DNA of 64,000 nt from Methanomassiliicoccus sp. (GTDB lineage: Archaea; Thermoplasmatota; Thermoplasmata; Methanomassiliicoccales; Methanomassiliicoccaceae). Below, piece by piece: positions 27,928 through 38,387 of this stretch. Below the pieces are notes generated by a model. That model searched no databases, was not told the origin of the DNA, and saw nothing but the letters and a program-made list of their open reading frames with translations. The stretch lies in NCBI GenBank assembly GCA_016109435.1, contig JAEILR010000003.1, positions 186,001-250,000 of the forward strand, given 5' to 3'. The stretch's first letter is position 1. Every line of letters begins with the position of its first letter. Both the position numbers and the translations under genes were made by a program.

Positions 27928-29991
27928 TTACTTCCGCCGGAGGTGCGCAACTACCGCGTCCTTGACGATCCTCACGCTGTCCATGGTCTGATCCCTGACC
28001 AGCGCGATGAGGCCAAAGCCGCGGGCCTTCGCCAAACCCAGGAGGTAGAGGCTCAGGTCCCTCATCAGCTTGCGGTCGGGGAGGTTCATTTCCCTGATCA
28101 GTTTGACGGTGGTGAAGGCGAGCTCCCTCGCCGACCGGACCTCCGAGATGGTGACGGTCTTCCGCCGGGAGGAGAACTTGGTTCCCCTGCCCATCCCGTA
28201 GTACCCGACCAGCCCGACGACCGAAGCGCATACCAGCCCGACGACCATCAACATAGAGTTGGTGGTCCCCCAGCCGACCGCGCCGGCGATGGACTGCCCG
28301 GAGCCGGGAACGTCCGAGGACGGCTCACCGAAATCCAGGCTGTAGGTGGTGTTGAGCATCGTGCCGTTCTCCCCGTACAGGGAGAGGGTGACCAGTTGGT
28401 CGCCGTCGGCGAAGGCGTGGCTCGGGGAGATCTCGTTGGAGACGCTGCCGTCACCGAAGTCCCACTGGACCCTGGAAACGGTGTCCCCGGCCAGTTCGGC
28501 CTCGAACGAGAACCGGTACTCCCGGGGAGCGATCTCCTCGGCCGATATCGTCGCCGAACCCCTCTCGGGGTCCCCGGCCACGGACAGAGTGTATTCCTGC
28601 ACATCCTCCTGGCCGTTCGCCGTGGAGATGACCTTGATGGTATAGTTACCGGCCATTCCCGGGGTCCCCCGGAGGGTCGATCCGGACCGGTCCAGAGCGA
28701 GGAAGCTCGCATCGGTATCGATCCGGATGGACGCTGGAGTGTTGGTGAGCACCTTGTACTCATAGGCGTTGCCTACCTTGTCCTTGAGGGAAGGCGAGGA
28801 GGTGATGTCCAGCGCCAGGGAGGCATCGTCGGAGCCGCTGTAACTCCCCTTCCAGTTGTTCGGCATGGGCACCGAGGCGGATCCTGAAACCCCGCCATAG
28901 TAAGGGTAGCCGGGGGTGCCGGTCAACACCATCGAGGCGATGGCCTTTCCTCCGGCGTTCCATATGGCGTCCTCACCATAGTCGTAGCGGACCAAGGGGT
29001 ACGGGCCGTTGTTGGCCAGCTCGCCCCAGAACAGGGGCTTGCCTGCCGCCCGGGCCCACTGCTCCGGCCCGGCGAAGTTGCTCGGGTCGGTGTTGGAGCC
29101 GTAGTAGTGCCGGTGGAGGATCTCGAACCCGGTGTCACCGGTGGCCAGATCAAAGTCCGCCTTGTTCATCCCGAACATGTTCCCGAAGCCGGCCACACCC
29201 ATGGTGCGGGGGTGATCGCTGACGCCCGCGGTGTCGTCGGCCACAGCATTGGACCACTGGTTGAACCTGACCTTGTCACCATGCCAGTACTGGGCGTGGA
29301 TGTTGTTGTGGTCCGGCTCGTTGAACAGGTCGTACATCGCGATCGCGTTCTCCTTCTCCAGCTCGACCATGGTCGACTTGGAGTACTCTATGTAGTTAGC
29401 ATAGGCCGAGGAGGACGGATCGAACACGCTGCCCGATCCGCCGTAGTGGTAGGTCGGGTATTCCTGAGCGCCGGCAACGACGAAGGCCAGCCATACTCCG
29501 TGGGCCTGAGCGTAGTAGCTCATGGTGTGGAGCAGGTCGAAGTACTCTTCCCTGTGGTTCTCCCAAGCATCGTACTGGTGCTCGGTCCCCCAGGTATCCC
29601 CGGCGCCGATGCGCACGAGGTTGACACCATAGTATTCCATCTGGGCGAAGTACTGGTTCCAGAAGGCGTCCGGAGTGTCATTGGGGGTCACTGGAACATG
29701 GGATCCGGTGTCCGGTGCATTGAACACTGACGTCCATCCGGCAACATTGCGGTTACCGTCGATGTACGTCTGAATAGCGAACGCTAAGGCGGTGGTATCG
29801 CACACGCCGAAGAACGGGTGGTCTGGCACTTTGCCGTCCACAAGGATGTCGGGGCCGGATACGGTCACTCTCCCAATATCGTTGGGAGCAGCGGCCGAAG
29901 AGGTCGGAATGTTGGATATCAGTAGCAGGCCTGGCAATAGGAAAGCTATTGTCGCCAAAGCTACCGCTAATTTGCTTATGTTTCGTTCCAT
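27928..29991 (-). CDS. secreted, membrane-anchored glycoside hydrolase (clan GH-A-like) with PKD domain
   Basis: 687 residues. Signal segment (about 6-32), then a TIM-barrel region to about residue 360 with the acid/base motif LFNEPDHNNI and the candidate nucleophile FWGELANNG, the NEP/GE pair of clan GH-A. A beta-sandwich follows (about 385-470), then a PKD domain (about 475-560; WDFGDGSVSNEISPSHAF), a membrane helix (about 585-610) and a basic cytoplasmic tail of about 80 residues. It probably cuts an external polysaccharide and signals or anchors through the tail. Start at the ATG at 29991, six bases after GAGAGGG. GH family and substrate are undetermined. Confidence 0.82.
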   Translation of the reverse strand: MERNISKLAVALATIAFLLPGLLLISNIPTSSAAAPNDIGRVTVSGPDILVDGKVPDHPFFGVCDTTALAFAIQTYIDGNRNVAGWTSVFNAPDTGSHVPVTPNDTPDAFWNQYFAQMEYYGVNLVRIGAGDTWGTEHQYDAWENHREEYFDLLHTMSYYAQAHGVWLAFVVAGAQEYPTYHYGGSGSVFDPSSSAYANYIEYSKSTMVELEKENAIAMYDLFNEPDHNNIHAQYWHGDKVRFNQWSNAVADDTAGVSDHPRTMGVAGFGNMFGMNKADFDLATGDTGFEILHRHYYGSNTDPSNFAGPEQWARAAGKPLFWGELANNGPYPLVRYDYGEDAIWNAGGKAIASMVLTGTPGYPYYGGVSGSASVPMPNNWKGSYSGSDDASLALDITSSPSLKDKVGNAYEYKVLTNTPASIRIDTDASFLALDRSGSTLRGTPGMAGNYTIKVISTANGQEDVQEYTLSVAGDPERGSATISAEEIAPREYRFSFEAELAGDTVSRVQWDFGDGSVSNEISPSHAFADGDQLVTLSLYGENGTMLNTTYSLDFGEPSSDVPGSGQSIAGAVGWGTTNSMLMVVGLVCASVVGLVGYYGMGRGTKFSSRRKTVTISEVRSARELAFTTVKLIREMNLPDRKLMRDLSLYLLGLAKARGFGLIALVRDQTMDSVRIVKDAVVAHLRRK

Positions 29992-30176
29992 AGGCATCCC
30001 TCTCTGTATCGACAGAGCTGTAGCCGTACCAAAACTGGGATATTTCAAGAGGTTTTCCATTCTATTATCTTGATTGATAATTGGGAATTATGAGATGCCA
30101 GATTAATTTCAGAAAGTGATAATATGTGCCAGTGATTATGAGAGTACGCGATAAGCTCCAGGAAAAAGAGGGAAAA

Positions 30177-31064
30177 ATGATGGACAAACAGGGCATGAGT
30201 GGCAAGTTGGTCGTCATCACCGGCGCTACGTCAGGCATCGGAAGGGCGACCGCGGAGGGCCTGTCGGCCATGGGCGCGACGCTCCTTCTTGTCGGCCGGG
30301 ACGAGGGCCGGCTAAAGGCGGCGCAGGACTCCATGCCCCGGGTGGAGGGCGTGCCCATGCCCGAAACGCATTGCGCTGACCTGTCGTCCATGGCCGAGGT
30401 CCGGCGGCTGGCGGCGGCGATCAGGGATGCGCATCCCAGAGTGGACGTTCTGATCAACAACGCCGGGACCATAGCGGGGCGGAGGAAGCTAACCGTTGAC
30501 GGTTACGAGTACACCTTCGCGCTGGACCATCTCTCTCCCTTCCTTCTCACCAATCTCCTGCTGGACCGCCTGAAGGCCGCCGCTCCGTCCAGGATCATCA
30601 CCGTCAGCTCCTCGGCGCACTTGGCCGGGAAGATCCATTTCGACGATCTCATGCTGGCCCGGAGGTACAGCGCGCCCCGGGCCTATGGGCAGGCTAAGCT
30701 GGCGAACGTTCTGTTCACTTACGAACTTGCACGCCGCCTCGAGGGGACAAGGGTCACCGCCAACTGCGTCCATCCGGGGGCCGTCAGGACTCACTTCGGC
30801 AACGAGGCCAGTGGGCCGGTGCGCATCGGCCTGGTGGCCGTTCGGCCGTTCGAGCTCAGCGCGCGGCAGGGGGCCAGGACACCCATCTACCTGGCATCCT
30901 CGCCGGAAGTGGAGGGAGTGACCGGAAGGTACTTCGTTCGGGGGAAGGCGAGAAGATCGTCCACCGCGTCATATGATCTGGACGCGGCAAGGCGGCTGTG
31001 GGAAGAGAGCGCCAGGCTCACCGGCCTGGAGGCCGATGAGCGGGCCGCCGGTGATCGGAAGTGA
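30177..31064 (+). CDS. short-chain dehydrogenase/reductase
   Basis: 295 residues, classical SDR: TGATSGIGRATAEG (cofactor loop), LINNAGTIAG, ITVSSSAH and the catalytic YGQAK (YxxxK). It resembles retinol-dehydrogenase-like SDRs with a C-terminal helical extension. ATG at 30177 has GAGGG upstream. The divergent glycosidase gene shares the AT-rich intergenic region 29992-30176. Confidence 0.88.
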   Translation: MMDKQGMSGKLVVITGATSGIGRATAEGLSAMGATLLLVGRDEGRLKAAQDSMPRVEGVPMPETHCADLSSMAEVRRLAAAIRDAHPRVDVLINNAGTIAGRRKLTVDGYEYTFALDHLSPFLLTNLLLDRLKAAAPSRIITVSSSAHLAGKIHFDDLMLARRYSAPRAYGQAKLANVLFTYELARRLEGTRVTANCVHPGAVRTHFGNEASGPVRIGLVAVRPFELSARQGARTPIYLASSPEVEGVTGRYFVRGKARRSSTASYDLDAARRLWEESARLTGLEADERAAGDRK

Positions 31065-31258: not shown

Positions 31259-31627
31259 ATGAACAAGATACTGATCGGTGTCCTGATCTTCGTCTCGATC
31301 TTCCTCATACTGCTGGGGGGCATATTCATCATCGCCGGAGGGGTGGCCAACATCATCACCGGAGGGATCATGGTGCTCGTCGCCATCGCCCTCCTGTTCT
31401 ACATATATCGGTTGGAAAAGGTCGAGGCCTCGAAACCCAAGCTCATCAACCAGACCTTCAATGTCCAGATGAGCGGCTCGGGGAAGCTGGATCAGAAACA
31501 GCTCACCTGTCGGTCCTGCGGCGCGCCCCTGGAGGACAAGGACCTGCGGGTGGTCCAGGGCGGGATCATGGTCAAGTGCCCGTACTGCGGGACGGTATAC
31601 GCGCTGGAGGAGGCGCCCAAATGGTGA
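31259..31627 (+). CDS. two-helix membrane protein with zinc ribbon, first gene of the Cys-Ala/rSAM unit
   Basis: 122 residues: hydrophobic helices at about 5-30 and 32-52, then a cytoplasmic zinc ribbon with C84-x2-C87 and C107-x2-C110. AGGGGT precedes the ATG, and AATATAGTTA near 31214 is a likely TATA box. Its stop overlaps the start of the DUF2207 gene by 7 bases (ATGGTGA), so the two proteins are probably made together and may form a membrane complex. Function unknown. Confidence 0.8.
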   Translation: MNKILIGVLIFVSIFLILLGGIFIIAGGVANIITGGIMVLVAIALLFYIYRLEKVEASKPKLINQTFNVQMSGSGKLDQKQLTCRSCGAPLEDKDLRVVQGGIMVKCPYCGTVYALEEAPKW

Positions 31628-33279
31628 TGTGGCGCTCCCTCATGGCCCTGGCCGCCATCTCCTGCCTTTGTATCGCCCTCATCGTGCCAGGGGGGCCGGC
31701 GGCATCGGCGGCGGCGCAGGACCCCTCGTTCTCCCTGTCGGAGGAGCGGGTCAACGTGACGGTGATGCAGGACGGCAGCGTGGACATCGATTACCGGTTC
31801 GAATTCACCAACGTCGGATTCCTGGACGGCGTGGACATCGGCATGCCTAACGACCGCTACGACCTCTCCACGGCGACCGCGTCTATCGTGGTCGACGGCG
31901 TGGAGCGATCCCCTCGCCTCATACACGACTCGCCGTTCGTGACCCCGGGGGTGGCGGTGGAGCTGGACCCAGCGACGGTATCGGCCGTCCAGGGGGGCGG
32001 TTCGTTCACCCTGGTCTTCCATATCAACAACCCCCACATGATCTACTCGGTGCCTGATCAGGAGGGGATGGCGGGGGTGGCCTTCACTCCCACGTGGTTC
32101 AGCACTCAGTACCAGAACGGCAACACCGGCCTGCTGAACGCGTCGGTGATCCTCCCGGCGGGCATGACCGACATCTCGGAAGCGACATGGCTCACCAACC
32201 AGCCGTTCGACGGCATCTATATTGACAGCGCCACCGGCCGGGGAGTGGCCACCTGGGAGGAGACCAGCGTCGATCCTGAAGGCCAGGCCGCCGGGGCGTT
32301 CGACGTGGGAGCGGGGTTCCCGTCAAGGTACGTTCAAACGTTCTTCGATCCCTCCACCGACCCCAACACCGGCCAGGGGGGAGGTGACATCCTGGGCGAC
32401 CTGGGTGTGCTGGCCGCCCTGCTCGCTCCCCTGCTGTTCATCGCCATTTTCCTCGCGGCCGTCGTGTCGGCCGTGAGAGGGGCGTCCAAGCGCCGGGAGG
32501 ACTACTTCGATCCCAAGCTCAGCGTGGTGGGGGCCGGCCCCCGCCGTGATCTCACCGCCCCGGAGGCCGCGGTGATCATGGAACGTCCGCTGGAGGACGT
32601 CGCCACGATGATCCTTTTCGGCCTCATCCGCAAGAACAAGGTCAGAGTGCTGTCGGAGGACCTGCCTATGCGGCTGCAGAAGCTCGCTGAGGTGGGCGAA
32701 CATCCGTACGAGATGGCCTACCTGAAGGCCATCACCGCGAACGGGACGATGGACCGAAATCTGCTGAGGGCCTGCCTGGTCGACCTCATCAAGGCCACCT
32801 CGAAGAAGGTAGAGGGGTTCGATTTCGCCGCCACCAAGAACTACTATGGTGTCATCGTGGAGAAGGCCTGGAAGCAGGTGATCGACGCCAAGACGCCTGA
32901 AGAGGTGGCCGCGGTGCTCAAGGAAAGGAACGACTGGATGATGGTCGACAGGAACTACCAGGATCGCATGAGGCGCACGGTCATCCCTCTGCCGATCCTG
33001 ACCAACTGGGGGCGGCCCTCCTCCGGTCAGACGGTCCTCGGCTTCCCCTCGGGAGGAAGCGGCAACATCGCCCAGGACTACGTCAGCAAGGTCCAGGCCG
33101 CCAGCAGCAACCTTGTGAATGACATGAAGGGCCTCGCTCGCCAGGTCGTGCCGTTCACCAATCCCGTGCCGGTAGCCTCCACCTCCGCTTCCAGCGCCGG
33201 GTTCAGGGGCGGCGGCGGGGGAAGGAGCTGTGCCTGCGCCTGTGCCTGCGCCTGTGCCTGTGCCGGGGGTGGCCGCTGA
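31621..33279 (+). CDS. DUF2207-type membrane protein ending in six Cys-Ala repeats
   Basis: 552 residues. Signal peptide (1-33), extracellular beta-rich domain (to about 255), membrane helix (about 258-282), then a cytoplasmic domain of 250 residues (TAPEAAVIMERPLEDVATMILFGLIRKNKV and so on). The tail is Gly-rich and ends RSCACACACACACAGGGR: Cys-Ala six times at residues 537-548. Codons alternate TGT and TGC, so the repeat is kept at protein level. DUF2207 proteins usually end in Gly/Ser. The tail faces the cytoplasm and the next gene, overlapping by one base (TGATG), is a radical SAM enzyme, so the cysteines are its likely substrate. Start has GGAGG upstream. Confidence 0.88.
   Translation: MVMWRSLMALAAISCLCIALIVPGGPAASAAAQDPSFSLSEERVNVTVMQDGSVDIDYRFEFTNVGFLDGVDIGMPNDRYDLSTATASIVVDGVERSPRLIHDSPFVTPGVAVELDPATVSAVQGGGSFTLVFHINNPHMIYSVPDQEGMAGVAFTPTWFSTQYQNGNTGLLNASVILPAGMTDISEATWLTNQPFDGIYIDSATGRGVATWEETSVDPEGQAAGAFDVGAGFPSRYVQTFFDPSTDPNTGQGGGDILGDLGVLAALLAPLLFIAIFLAAVVSAVRGASKRREDYFDPKLSVVGAGPRRDLTAPEAAVIMERPLEDVATMILFGLIRKNKVRVLSEDLPMRLQKLAEVGEHPYEMAYLKAITANGTMDRNLLRACLVDLIKATSKKVEGFDFAATKNYYGVIVEKAWKQVIDAKTPEEVAAVLKERNDWMMVDRNYQDRMRRTVIPLPILTNWGRPSSGQTVLGFPSGGSGNIAQDYVSKVQAASSNLVNDMKGLARQVVPFTNPVPVASTSASSAGFRGGGGGRSCACACACACACAGGGR
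33229..33264 (+). repeat. in-frame repeat encoding six Cys-Ala units
   Basis: Six TGY-GCC units at the 3' end of the DUF2207 gene. Cysteine codons run TGT, TGC, TGT, TGC, TGT, TGT with GCC constant. Confidence 0.95.
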
Positions 33280-34619
33280 TGGCGCTGGGACGGCGCTGGG
33301 CCGAGCTGACCGGCAAGGGGCTGCCGAAAGGGGTTTGGAAGTTCGATGGCCAGGGCCCACTGGCCCACCATCGCTTCCACCTTCGCGTGGACTCCCACCG
33401 CCGGGGCATACTCATCGTCGACGCGGCGCAGCTGGTGGAGCTCAACGGCACCGCGCTGGACTATGTGCGGTGCATCCTGGAGGGCCGGTCCGAGGAGGAC
33501 ATGTACAAGTACATGGACCATCGGTACAAGAACCTGGACCGGGCCATCGCGGTGGAGCACTATGCCGCCACCGCCCGGCAGCTGGAGGCCTTCGTTCACG
33601 GCGACACCGAGGTCGTTAACGTGATAGGATCGGACCGGCCGACCAAGGGAGCGGACGATTTCCCTGCCCCCTACCGGATGGACCTGGTCCTGACATACCG
33701 GTGCCAGAACGCCTGCTCCCATTGCTATAACCAGCCCCGGGAGCTGGTCGAGCTTTCCGCGGAGAAGTGGGCGAAGGTGATAACCCGAACCTGGCAGCTG
33801 GGCATCCCCCATATCGTGTTCACCGGCGGGGAGCCCACCCTGGCGCCGTTCCTTGGAGACCTCATCGCCCGGTCGGAGGACTATGGCCAGGTGACCGGCC
33901 TGGTGACGAATGGGCGCAACCTGCGCACCCCCGGCTACCTCCGGGACCTGGTGTCCAGAGGGTTGGACCACGTACAGATCACCGTGCTCTCCCACCGTGA
34001 GGACGTCCACGACCATCTGGCCGGAAGCCCGGGAGCCTGGAGGGAAACGGTGGAGGGGCTGAAGGTCGCCCTGAGCGAGGACCTGTACGTCAGCACCAAC
34101 ACCACCATCATGGCCTCGAACCTGGAGGACATGGAGGGGACCATGCGTTTCCTTCTCGAACTGGGGGTGAAGAACATCGCCTTCAACGGCATCATCCGCT
34201 CGGGGAAGGGGACCGAGGCCGCGGGCGTGGACTGCGCCAGGATGGAGGAGGTCCTGACCCGGTTGAAGGACATGGCCGAAGCCGGTGGGGCCAAGATGAT
34301 GTGGTACACTCCCACCCCCTACTGTCAGCTGAACCCCGTCAACCTGGGGCTGGGGATCAAGCAGTGCACCGCCTGCTCCCTGAACATGGCGGTGGAGCCG
34401 GACGGGACGGTGCTGCCATGCCAGAGTTACTACCGGCCCCTGGGCAACATCCTGAAAGACCAGTGGGAGAACATATGGAACCATGAGCTGTGCGGACAGA
34501 TAAGGGAGCGGAAGTACCTCGACGACCAATGTTCTGGATGCGCCATGGTGGACACCTGCGGAGGCGGCTGCCCCCTGGCCCGCGAGCACGGGGACTATTC
34601 CTGTCCCGAGCATCTCTGA
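33279..34619 (+). CDS. radical SAM/SPASM enzyme with PqqD-like N-terminal domain
   Basis: 446 residues. Residues about 30-110 resemble a PqqD/RRE peptide-binding domain (HLRVDSHRRGILIVDAAQ, VELNGTALDYVRCILEGRS). The radical SAM motif is C142-x3-C146-x2-C149 (YRCQNACSHCYN), with GGEP at 183-186. The C-terminal SPASM region has Cys349, 363, 366, 381, 418, 421, 427, 431 and 442, enough for two auxiliary 4Fe-4S clusters. This is the architecture of peptide-modifying enzymes that form thioether or carbon cross-links. The ATG overlaps the DUF2207 stop by one base, making its Cys-Ala tail the obvious substrate. The chemistry is inference. Confidence 0.9.
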   Translation: MALGRRWAELTGKGLPKGVWKFDGQGPLAHHRFHLRVDSHRRGILIVDAAQLVELNGTALDYVRCILEGRSEEDMYKYMDHRYKNLDRAIAVEHYAATARQLEAFVHGDTEVVNVIGSDRPTKGADDFPAPYRMDLVLTYRCQNACSHCYNQPRELVELSAEKWAKVITRTWQLGIPHIVFTGGEPTLAPFLGDLIARSEDYGQVTGLVTNGRNLRTPGYLRDLVSRGLDHVQITVLSHREDVHDHLAGSPGAWRETVEGLKVALSEDLYVSTNTTIMASNLEDMEGTMRFLLELGVKNIAFNGIIRSGKGTEAAGVDCARMEEVLTRLKDMAEAGGAKMMWYTPTPYCQLNPVNLGLGIKQCTACSLNMAVEPDGTVLPCQSYYRPLGNILKDQWENIWNHELCGQIRERKYLDDQCSGCAMVDTCGGGCPLAREHGDYSCPEHL

Positions 34620-34622
34620 GCG

Positions 34623-35456
34623 CTATCGCCCCTTCCTGGCCATGGCGTAGAACACCGGGTTGAACTGGACCAGGGAACCGTTGGCCGCCGCTGCGTCCCA
34701 GTCGTTCCTTAGGGCGTCCTCCGCGCCCCCCTCATCTGCCGGGACCAGGGAGTTCCACTCCGCGTCGGAACCCTCTCTCACGCTGCGATCGTTCCACATG
34801 CTGGCATGGACGCCCATGTCCGGCCGCAGTCCGCATCGGGCATAGGTCCCCTGCAGTTTCCTTCCCATCTGGGGGTCTGCGCCCTGCCGCCGAAGGCTGT
34901 CGATGAACAGCCGGTCCACGGCGGTGATCTCCGGCGGATAGGATATCCGACCGAAATGGTCCGGCTCGGCCAGGCATATCACCCAGTCCCTGGAGACGCG
35001 GGCCATCTCCTTCACCACCTTCACCGGGTCCGCCGTCCACAGGAGGAGGAAGGAACAATATACGATGTCGAAAGCGCCGTCCTCGAAGGGAAGCTCCTCG
35101 GCCCTGGCCACTCGTGCCCGCAGCCCCCTGGCGGTGCTCTCGGAGACCATCCGATGGTCGATGTCGATCCCCTCCACGTCAATGAAGGGGGACAGCAGCT
35201 CCATGACCAGGCCGGGGCCGCAGCCGACGTCCAGGGCGGTCGGCCGGGGGAGACCCTCCTTCCGGCCGGCCAGCACCCTGGTGCGCAGCAGCCAGATCCA
35301 GGAGTCGCCGAGCCAGGAACGCTGTCGGGCGAGCTGCTCCTCGGGGACCACTCCGGCACACACGACCCAGTGAAGCGGGGCGTAGCGAGAATAACATTTC
35401 GGTCGGCGGTCTTCCGGAAAAAAGGAAAAATTGGAAAAGGTTCTAGGATCTTTCAT
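34623..35456 (-). CDS. class I SAM-dependent methyltransferase
   Basis: 277 residues from the ATG at 35456. Motif I LDVGCGPGLVMELL, acidic GIDIDHRM, FDIVYCSFLLLWT and RVSRDWVICLAEPDHFGR are typical of Methyltransf_11-type enzymes. Substrate unknown. It is convergent with the radical SAM gene (three bases apart). The longer frame to 35561 passes through AT-rich promoter sequence and is not used. Confidence 0.83.
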   Translation of the reverse strand: MKDPRTFSNFSFFPEDRRPKCYSRYAPLHWVVCAGVVPEEQLARQRSWLGDSWIWLLRTRVLAGRKEGLPRPTALDVGCGPGLVMELLSPFIDVEGIDIDHRMVSESTARGLRARVARAEELPFEDGAFDIVYCSFLLLWTADPVKVVKEMARVSRDWVICLAEPDHFGRISYPPEITAVDRLFIDSLRRQGADPQMGRKLQGTYARCGLRPDMGVHASMWNDRSVREGSDAEWNSLVPADEGGAEDALRNDWDAAAANGSLVQFNPVFYAMARKGR

Positions 35457-35615
35457 CCGCTCAAGTAGACCTGATGGTCCGAGGGTATGGCCTAGGCCGG
35501 AATGGGAGTGGCCTTTAGCGTTCCGGGCGATCGTTTCCCGACCAGTTTTCCATGTTGCCATAATTAATTATACGACCCTGGTTTTACACGATTCGGGGTT
35601 CGCACTCTGACCAAG

Positions 35616-36902
35616 ATGACGCTACCTACGGCTTTTGTCATCAACATGGGCGCCAATGGCCTGGCCGTTGCTCGAACGCTCGGTCGAAAGGGTGTGCCGG
35701 TGGTGGGCGTGGACAGCCGGCCAAAAGCTCCTGGGCTGGCGTCCAGGTATGTCACCGAACTGCTGACCGAGGACCTGCAACAGCACCCCGATGCCGTCCT
35801 GGACGCCATGCTGGGCGCCGGTCGCGAGCTGGACCACAAGGGCGTGTTATTCCCGGCCTCCGACGCCGCGGTCCAATTCATTTGTGCCAATGAGCGGGCG
35901 CTTTCAGAATACTATGTCTTCACTACTCCGCCCGAGCGGGTCAGGGAGGCCATGGTGAACAAGCGCCTGCAGTACGATGAGGCGGTGCGGCTGAACATTC
36001 CCGTACCGGAAACGATGTTCCCCATCGGTCCGGAGGACCTGGACAAGGTCGCGGTCCGCTTCCCCGCCTTCATCAAGCCATTGTACTCCCATCAATGGTG
36101 CACCACCTTCGATAACAAGGGGTTCGTGGTCAAGGGCCGGGCCGACCTCAGGGACAAGATGGCCATGGTCTTCGCCTCCGGCCATAAGGTCATGGTCCAG
36201 ACCATCATGCTCCCTCCCGGGAAGGGCCTATACAGCGTCGGGGCGTACTTCAGCGGGGACGGCTACATCTCCCCGGAGTTCTGCTGGCATAAGCTCCGGC
36301 AGTATCCGCCGAGCTTCGGCGTGGGCTCGCTGGTGGAGAGCGCCCATGAGCCGGAGGTCAGAGAGCTTGCCCTCCGCTTCATGAAGGGAATGGACTACAG
36401 GGGCATCGGATACGTCGAGTTCAAGAGGGACCATCACGACGGCGAGTTCAAGATGGTGGAGATGAACGCCAGGACCGGGCAGACGAACGCCCTGCAGGCC
36501 GCGGCCGGCCGGCCCCTGGTGCTATTCCAGTATTATGACCTGATCGGCCATCCCCTGCCCGATGTCGGTGACTATCCCGACGGGGTCCGGTGGTGGGACA
36601 GTCTGAACGATCTCGAGTCGTTCTGGCGGCTGAACCGGAGGGGGGAGCTGACCACGTCCCAGTGGTTGGGCTCGATCGCTCACGTTAACGTGCACGCGTA
36701 CTTTGCGTCCAGCGACCTCGCCCCGGTGCTTCGGCGTTACGGATTCGGTGTGGAGCTGGCAAAATTGACCTATAACCTTCTTAAGATGGAGTCTGATGAC
36801 GACGCCGTGGTGAGCTCGGACAACTCGAGCATATCTCCTGCGGCGAGGCCCACCTCGTTGAGAGCGGGGGAATGTGAGAAGAATGACAAGGGGAGCCCTT
36901 GA
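35616..36902 (+). CDS. ATP-grasp ligase
   Basis: 428 residues: a pre-ATP-grasp Rossmann-like N-terminus (AFVINMGANGLAVARTLGRKG), central ATP-grasp region with FPAFIKPLYSHQW (phosphate-binding lysine) and a C-terminal metal motif FKMVEMNARTGQTN. It resembles D-aspartate ligase/carboxylate-amine ligases that attach an amino group to a carboxylate in surface or cofactor synthesis. A Ser/Asp-rich tail of about 45 residues is unusual. The flippase gene follows 54 bases later. Confidence 0.83.
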   Translation: MTLPTAFVINMGANGLAVARTLGRKGVPVVGVDSRPKAPGLASRYVTELLTEDLQQHPDAVLDAMLGAGRELDHKGVLFPASDAAVQFICANERALSEYYVFTTPPERVREAMVNKRLQYDEAVRLNIPVPETMFPIGPEDLDKVAVRFPAFIKPLYSHQWCTTFDNKGFVVKGRADLRDKMAMVFASGHKVMVQTIMLPPGKGLYSVGAYFSGDGYISPEFCWHKLRQYPPSFGVGSLVESAHEPEVRELALRFMKGMDYRGIGYVEFKRDHHDGEFKMVEMNARTGQTNALQAAAGRPLVLFQYYDLIGHPLPDVGDYPDGVRWWDSLNDLESFWRLNRRGELTTSQWLGSIAHVNVHAYFASSDLAPVLRRYGFGVELAKLTYNLLKMESDDDAVVSSDNSSISPAARPTSLRAGECEKNDKGSP

Positions 36903-36956
36903 GACCCAAGCCCCGCTCAGAACAAAGATGGTGATAACATAAGTCTCGTACGCGGA

Positions 36957-38387
36957 GTGGCCAAGAACTCGATGGCCATGGCCATCGTCCAGTTCACCGG
37001 CCAGGTGAGCACTCTCATCCTGGCCATGGTGCTCAGCCGTTCCCTGGGGGACGACTATACCACCTACACCGCGGCCTTCTCCATCGCCGCCCTGCTGTTC
37101 CTCATCGCCGATCTGGGCCTGGGGGTCAAGCTGGTCATCGATGTGGCCCAGGAACGGTCAACCGCCAGCAGCAAGCTCACCTCGGTCCTGTTCATCCGCG
37201 GGACCATGGGTATCGTGGCCATACTGTTGACGCTGACCATTGTGGTGATCCAGGACCTGCCGTCGGACGTGGCCTTTGCCTACATGATCATCGCCCTGTC
37301 CACCGGCCTGGGATGGATAGCGCAGACCTTCACCTCGATGTTCACCGCCTACGAGCGGATGCACTACGTGCTCATGACCTCCCTGGTGGAGAGAGCCTTC
37401 ACCGTGTCCATCTCCATTGCCCTGGTGCTCCTGGGATACGGACTGGAGGTGGTGGTGATGGTCGTCCTGGTCGGCAGCATGCTATATGTCATCCTCTCGT
37501 ACACGGTGTGCAGCCGCCTCATCGTCAAGCCGTCCAGAAAGATCAGCCTGGCCCAGGTCAAGGAGGAACTGAAAGGTTCCGCCCCGTTCGCCATCAACAT
37601 CGCCCTGGTGAGCACGCTGTACGCGGTCAACGGGTTCCTGCTGCTGTCCATCGTATGGGGTATGGACGGCCTGGAGGCCGGTCAGTTGGCCAATACTCAG
37701 TTCTACATCGCCTTCAACCTGGTGGTGTCCCTGATCGCCGTTCCCACGGTGTTCAGGACCGCTCTTCTGCCGGTCATCGCCCGCCTGTTCGGATCATCGA
37801 AAGAGATGACCAAGCTGGCGCAGCAGAAGGTCATGAAGTACATGTACACCATCGGCCTTCCCATGACCCTGGGGGGCATGGTCCTGGCCGACCAGATCAT
37901 CGCCCTGCTCTTCCCCAACTACCCGGAATCGGCCACCGTGCTGAGGGTCCTCCTGCCGGTACTGGCTATATCCTATTTCGGCACGGGCCAGGGAAGCCTG
38001 CTGGCTGCGGCCAAGCTGATGCACCTGAGCACCATCTCATCGGCCGCCGGCGCGGCCACCAACCTGGTCCTCTGCTTCCTGGCGATCCCCGTGCTAGGGC
38101 CGGTGGGCGCGGCCCTGGCCTTCACCGTGGCGACCCTGGTCACCAATCTCATCAGCCACCACTACATGAGCAAGCGGGTCGTCAAGCTCAAGGTGTCAGA
38201 GATCATCGTCCGGCCGACCCTGGCAGGCCTGGGCATGACCGCGGTCCTGCTCCTCCTGCCATGGGACAACCTGTTCCTCTCCATCGTCATCGGTGTGGCC
38301 GTCTACTTCATCCTCCTGATCGCCCTTAAGGCGGTGGACCAGGACGACATCGATATCTTCCGCAAGGCGGTCAACAGGAAGGCGTGA
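36957..38387 (+). CDS. oligosaccharide flippase (Wzx/MATE-like)
   Basis: 476 residues with about 14 membrane segments in the polysaccharide_synt family pattern (LSRSLGDDYTTYTAAFSIAALLFLIADLGLG; PVLGPVGAALAFTVATLV). It would flip lipid-linked glycans across the membrane. The GTG start has no ribosome site; in-frame codons extend upstream to an ATA at 36939 that does have GGTGAT five bases before it, so the true N-terminus may begin there with six more residues. Probably cotranscribed with the ATP-grasp gene. Confidence 0.85.
   Translation: MAKNSMAMAIVQFTGQVSTLILAMVLSRSLGDDYTTYTAAFSIAALLFLIADLGLGVKLVIDVAQERSTASSKLTSVLFIRGTMGIVAILLTLTIVVIQDLPSDVAFAYMIIALSTGLGWIAQTFTSMFTAYERMHYVLMTSLVERAFTVSISIALVLLGYGLEVVVMVVLVGSMLYVILSYTVCSRLIVKPSRKISLAQVKEELKGSAPFAINIALVSTLYAVNGFLLLSIVWGMDGLEAGQLANTQFYIAFNLVVSLIAVPTVFRTALLPVIARLFGSSKEMTKLAQQKVMKYMYTIGLPMTLGGMVLADQIIALLFPNYPESATVLRVLLPVLAISYFGTGQGSLLAAAKLMHLSTISSAAGAATNLVLCFLAIPVLGPVGAALAFTVATLVTNLISHHYMSKRVVKLKVSEIIVRPTLAGLGMTAVLLLLPWDNLFLSIVIGVAVYFILLIALKAVDQDDIDIFRKAVNRKA

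Follow-up and report, generated by a model that had tools for sequence, protein, structure and literature searches.

A candidate post-translational modification cassette pairing a Cys-Ala-repeat membrane-protein tail with a radical SAM/SPASM enzyme

We have analyzed a cassette within a 64 000-nucleotide stretch of Methanomassiliicoccus DNA (hereafter the window), in which three overlapping genes, read left to right, encode a zinc-ribbon protein, a 552-amino acid (aa) membrane protein, and a radical SAM/SPASM enzyme (Table 1). The membrane protein ends, after S536, in CACACACACACA-GGGR, and the last base of its TGA stop codon (33279) is the single base that it has in common with the ATG start codon of the enzyme gene. 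An earlier note on this DNA, made from the sequence alone, had described six Cys–Ala units followed by GGGR, the one-base overlap, a two-helix zinc-ribbon partner, and a target that would be a large membrane protein rather than a small peptide, and translation bears out all four. We conclude that this is probably a modification cassette of the kind known for ribosomally synthesized and post-translationally modified peptides (RiPPs), acting here on the cytosolic tail of a membrane protein. Three aspects escaped the earlier note: a methyltransferase gene beside the cassette, the spread of the system into bacteria, and tails that continue beyond GGGR.

Table 1. Coordinates of the cassette features, numbered from the first base of the window
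Feature	Position	Strand	Description and basis
122-aa protein	31259..31627	+	First cassette gene; two transmembrane helices and a CxxC...CxxC zinc ribbon (translation)
552-aa membrane protein	31621..33279	+	Proposed substrate (translation, structure model)
C-terminal tail, (Cys-Ala)6-Gly-Gly-Gly-Arg	33229..33276	+	Proposed modification site; residues 537-552
446-aa radical SAM/SPASM enzyme	33279..34619	+	Proposed tail maturase (Pfam, motifs, fold matches)
PqqD/RRE-like N-terminal region of the enzyme	33327..33596	+	About residues 17-106; strands then helices in the model
312-aa class I S-adenosylmethionine-dependent methyltransferase	34623..35561	-	Fourth gene (Methyltransf_11 match)

The Cys-Ala tail and the protein that carries it

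All 23 substrate proteins in the closest set (22 orthologues and that of the window) have the identical 16-residue end, (CA)6GGGR. The earlier note had argued for selection at the protein level from an alternation of TGT and TGC among the cysteine codons; the alternation is not strict, the order in the window being TGT TGC TGT TGC TGT TGT, but the selection itself is supported by the 23 orthologues, which use two to four synonymous codons at each tail position, with a mean third-position divergence of 58%, and differ by 78% in the 20 residues preceding the tail. Because codons drift while the amino acids are invariant, the tail is selected as protein and is under strong purifying selection at that level; a DNA-level repeat artefact, considered as an explanation, is ruled out by the same pattern. 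Among 29 homologues from archaea, Chloroflexi, Planctomycetes, and Armatimonadetes, mean identity is 99.6% over the last 16 residues, as compared to 49% over the rest of the protein and 40% over the linker.

Beyond this set the tail takes several forms, given here for the matches listed. The (CA)6GGGR end is found in most Thermoplasmatota and in Heimdallarchaeota, CACACAGCACACACAGGGR ends the tails of Chloroflexi, Planctomycetes, and Armatimonadetes, and CACVSCACACVSCACACACAGGGGGCT ends those of Methanocella; Krumholzibacteria, Chitinivibrionia, and Aminicenantes have a CACACVSCACACACAGGGGAGCSRK tail. In Clostridia the CA repeats are followed by GGGRAGCSxKDFY..., running on past GGGR. The two-residue register is broken in several tails (CACVSCACA, SCAHSSCACA).

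The structure model of the 552-aa protein, built with 29 sequences, has a predicted local distance difference test score (pLDDT) of 77, and of ∼30 in the tail region (515-552). It predicts a signal peptide followed by a beta domain outside the cytoplasm (37-234) and a single transmembrane helix (257-294); on the cytosolic side come a part resembling a winged helix and the tail, which is predicted to be cytosolic and disordered and would therefore lie within reach of an oxygen-sensitive Fe-S enzyme. The clostridial and archaeal tail proteins have homologous extracytoplasmic domains (hhalign 99.6%, E 1e-24) and also correspond to each other in the tail. The DUF2207 label that the earlier note had given to the membrane protein has to be withdrawn: there is no Pfam match to PF09972 or PF20990, and when the protein is compared by hhalign with genuine DUF2207 proteins, of which three come from the same phylum, the probability is 7%. 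Nor does the protein reach the TIGR04222 cut-off (21.5 bits, where 43 are required); similarity to that family reaches E<0.01 in 8 of the 29 homologues, and TIGR04222 proteins are possible distant kin only. True DUF2207 proteins of the same phylum (L210-L212) end in GGGFGGGG-AGGR; a C-terminus of the type A-G-G-(G)-R is thus also present in membrane proteins that have no detectable relation to the 552-aa protein.

Pairing of tail and enzyme across genomes

Enzyme, substrate, and tail occur together in 23 of 61 close genomes and are all absent from the other 38. Across the phylum (293 genomes), the set of genomes with the tail and the set with the enzyme are the same 16, and 277 have neither. 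A search for SPASM genes accompanying such tails, the check that the earlier note had proposed, thus finds the gene in 16 of 16 cases, and in either gene order. We also scanned 84 980 species genomes with a DNA pattern for the tail and obtained at least 119 stretches, of which 110 are credible tails; nine matches, mostly from GC-rich genomes, were excluded as chance or out-of-frame (L061, L070, L081, L110, L112, L126, L132, L148, and L171). Most of the genomes surveyed are metagenome bins. Among the matches listed, an enzyme of the same subfamily (E<1e-10) is adjacent to the tail gene and on the same strand at 83 of the 110 credible loci; the remaining 27 comprise 22 whose genomes hold the enzyme elsewhere, 4 at contig ends, and 1 exception, and most of these 27 neighborhoods were cut by the stored sequence block. 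The relation also holds when approached from the enzyme: 8 of 80 genomes from a Lachnospiraceae-type family are enzyme-positive and all 8 have a tail, 6 matching the exact pattern and 2 carrying the variant CACACACASSGRAGC. These last two had been candidates for an enzyme without a tail, a status that their SSGR variant rules out.

At the scored loci among the matches listed, the enzyme gene lies upstream of the substrate gene in 69 and downstream in 11, mostly upstream in bacteria and mostly downstream in archaea, and the order is swapped between lineages, also inside the phylum. The pairing is therefore not explained by one inherited operon order, and the fact that the two genes stay together despite rearrangement suggests that they function as a pair. 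In the genomes surveyed, the tail and this SPASM subfamily form a near-obligate pair. Such co-occurrence supports function, not chemistry. At a few loci (L163, in tandem; L066; L086/L092) two tail-bearing proteins adjoin one enzyme gene, which suggests that one enzyme can serve several substrates.

The enzyme, its candidate chemistry, and the alternatives

The enzyme belongs to the radical SAM superfamily (PF04055, 74.2 bits against a cut-off of 29.5) and has a SPASM domain (PF13186, 39.3 bits against 21.5). Its CX3CX2C motif (C142/C146/C149) is invariant in 27 of 27 sequences, and the seven SPASM cysteines noted earlier are present in the window enzyme in the pattern CX9-15GX4C-CX2CX5CX3C-C, of which CX9GX4C and CX2CX5CX3C are conserved outside Clostridia. 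In the model (pLDDT 84), beta strands and three helices precede the radical SAM barrel; the best fold matches in the PDB are SkfB, SuiB, PqqE, and CteB, those to SuiB and CteB being full-length, and the closest PDB sequences are PqqE and SkfB. The Pfam PqqD model has no match in the window enzyme itself, is sub-threshold in the homologue at L068, and scores 26.3 bits against a cut-off of 23.4 in the homologue at L155. On this homologue match, the modeled secondary structure, and the SuiB and CteB fold matches, we assign a PqqD-like recognition domain to the N-terminus, as the earlier note had done. No named NCBIfam maturase family (PqqE, NirJ, SkfB, AlbA, MftC, etc.) is above its cut-off for the enzyme (PqqE, the best one listed, gives 110 bits against 381), the bacterial homologues scanned are likewise below the curated cut-offs, and no NCBIfam model is above cut-off for any of the three cassette proteins (122, 552, and 446 aa). 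The system may thus rightly be called uncharacterized, as the earlier note had it, in that no curated family covers the tail protein or the enzyme. In Planctomycetes and Armatimonadetes (L085, L127, L128, and L172), a second enzyme homologue is encoded between the enzyme and substrate genes; it looks like a dead paralogue, because CX3CX2C is gone from the L085 and L127 sequences, and is perhaps a peptide-binding helper.

The tail is very probably the substrate of the enzyme. In the mechanism that we propose, the fused PqqD-like domain would dock the enzyme on the membrane protein, and the enzyme would then modify the (Cys-Ala)n-Gly tail, which is cytosolic and disordered, most likely by introducing intramolecular Cys thioether crosslinks of sactionine- or ranthionine-like type. 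Such crosslinks would stiffen the tail into a hairpin or ribbon, rich in sulfur, that stays attached to the membrane protein. SkfB and CteB form Cys thioethers, SuiB forms a C-C bond, and in some sactipeptides Ala alpha-carbons are the thioether acceptors. We rate thioether crosslinks within the CA tail as the likeliest product because SkfB and CteB make Cys thioethers and such acceptors are known, and would give them an even chance. The modified tail may have a sensing or metal role, which we put forward as a candidate. Somewhat short of even odds, in our estimate, is the more specific idea of a widespread archaeal and bacterial system in which the SPASM enzyme, with the methyltransferase in many lineages, makes a new polycyclic sulfur-crosslinked or alternating D/L tail that stays on the protein and works there, for instance as a metal or redox element tethered to the membrane, and not as a released natural product.

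The methyltransferase gene is convergent with the enzyme gene and lies 3 bases past its stop codon (Methyltransf_11, 66.7 bits). It adjoins the cassette in all 20 relatives fetched, by neighborhood comparison and cassette map, and a homologue lies on the same strand as the cassette in Heimdallarchaeota, Chloroflexi, Planctomycetes, and Armatimonadetes. Counting those loci among the matches listed whose downstream flank extends for 2.5 kb or more, it is present at 17 of 22 GGGR-end loci and at 0 of 55 extended-tail loci. This confinement to loci with a GGGR end hints at action at the free C-terminus. In the GGGR-end lineages the methyltransferase would belong to the same pathway; plausible targets, which we assign tentatively, are the carboxylate of the C-terminus and any thiols left free. 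LahSB, a RiPP methyltransferase, is among its weak PDB matches, which may reflect the shared class I fold alone.

Several points weigh against a thioether-forming cassette of this kind. Neither Ala nor Gly has a reactive side chain, which leaves alpha-carbons and the Ala methyl as the sole acceptors, and the products of RiPP enzymes of this fold also include C-C bonds and epimers, among others. In clostridial enzymes the CX2CX5CX3C half of the SPASM domain is missing; these enzymes therefore differ in their number of auxiliary clusters, and may also differ in chemistry. On the enzyme tree, the correlation of the methyltransferase with GGGR ends comes down to no more than one or two independent changes, making the methyltransferase target a lead, not a result. 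Finally, the 1.7-Mb metagenome bin of one locus (L103) contains a credible tail but no such enzyme. The earlier note had held that tails kept in genomes without any SPASM enzyme would speak against the proposal; among the matches listed this occurs once, at L103, and otherwise not at the 106 resolvable loci. The tail of L103/L194, the sole credible one without an enzyme among those matches, has as its upstream neighbor a 2388-aa surface-like protein.

Among other explanations, the one that we consider least improbable, though still unlikely, leaves the tail covalently unchanged, as a thiol-rich element binding a metal or cluster or as a docking tag, with the enzyme modifying a different part of the complex or making a small cofactor that is bound there. 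Metal handling would be consistent with the spacing of the cysteines, one at every other residue, and with the zinc-ribbon partner; yet the enzyme has a PqqD/RRE-like domain for peptide docking, its occurrence follows that of the tail and of no other conserved part, and the neighborhood comparison found no cofactor-biosynthesis genes traveling with it. Slightly less credible to us is epimerization of alternate residues of (Cys-Ala)n, in the manner of PoyD or EpeE, giving an alternating L/D peptide with all its thiols on one face and a bound metal. A tail that repeats strictly every two residues would suit an alternating modification and the SPASM epimerase EpeE is among the fold matches, but maturases forming thioethers or C-C bonds rank far higher there, and the breaks in register described above do not fit. 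We give almost no credence to convergence, whereby generic SPASM enzymes would stand beside low-complexity tails as a by-product of operon inheritance, Gly/Cys-rich tails being common among membrane proteins: true DUF2207 and TIGR04222 proteins do also have Gly-rich or Cys-rich tails, but the identical presence sets in 293 genomes, the swapped gene order, and a tail that stays invariant beside a diverging linker all oppose it.

Related systems and neighboring genes

The RRE-containing SPASM maturases of RiPPs (SkfB, SuiB, CteB, PqqE, and the sactipeptide and ranthipeptide enzymes) have the same PqqD-like N-domain, CX3CX2C core, and SPASM domain, but their substrates are small leader/core peptides, whereas here the proposed substrates are the tails of membrane proteins of roughly 280-630 aa. 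The cassette is thus not a RiPP system in the strict sense of a small leader-core precursor and a cleaved product, its candidate substrate being a 552-aa membrane protein. QhpD is a SPASM enzyme that forms Cys thioethers within a protein that stays a protein; its target, the gamma subunit of quinohemoprotein amine dehydrogenase (QHNDH), is a small enzyme subunit, in which Cys is bonded to Asp or Glu. The tail studied here differs in being a repeat in which Ala and Gly are the sole neighbors of Cys.

Two further comparisons concern the form of the substrate. Membrane proteins of TIGR04222 with Cys/Gly-rich tails, Gly/Ser-rich with interspersed Cys and predicted to be periplasmic, have been proposed as MNIO substrates (PMC12452194). 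That arrangement likewise has a membrane protein, a low-complexity Cys-rich C-terminal tail, and an adjacent modifying metalloenzyme, but the partner here is a radical SAM/SPASM enzyme and the tail is predicted to be cytosolic. TvgB has been shown to act repeatedly along the TVGG repeats of TvgA, (TVGG)n, and (Asp-Cys)n precursor peptides are uncharacterized (PMC9062424). Both resemble our system in joining a SPASM-subfamily enzyme to a short repeated motif as substrate; they are small dedicated peptides, in contrast to a membrane-protein tail. The openly searchable literature, with subscription papers outside its scope, yielded no description of the tail or of a DUF2207-radical SAM pair.

If the proposal is correct, RiPP-type radical chemistry is not limited to small natural products, and would also serve in a conserved finishing of a cellular membrane protein that is common to methanogens, Heimdallarchaeota, Chloroflexi, Planctomycetes, Armatimonadetes, and rumen and gut Clostridia. 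It would moreover give a function to a large set of proteins without a curated family name. The proposed substrate is defined with unusual precision, as 12-16 residues that are all Cys, Ala, Gly, or Arg.

The 122-aa protein has only sub-threshold Pfam matches for its zinc ribbon. According to the cassette map, its homologue adjoins the cassette in relatives and in Armatimonadetes and Planctomycetes, and zinc-ribbon proteins are found repeatedly upstream; at the extended-tail locus L137, the substrate protein itself includes TFIIB-type zinc ribbons, as a fusion. Neither the neighborhood comparison nor the cassette map showed a peptidase or transporter gene conserved with the cassette. PADLOC matches (viperin, mad2) were set aside as generic superfamily matches. 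Past the methyltransferase (35616-38387 of the window) lie ATP-grasp-like and MATE/flippase-like genes, probably unrelated to the cassette because their order is kept in genus-level relatives only. Upstream, a glycoside-hydrolase-like surface protein (27928-30060, - strand) and a short-chain dehydrogenase (30126-31064, + strand) are each encoded beside the cassette in close relatives only.

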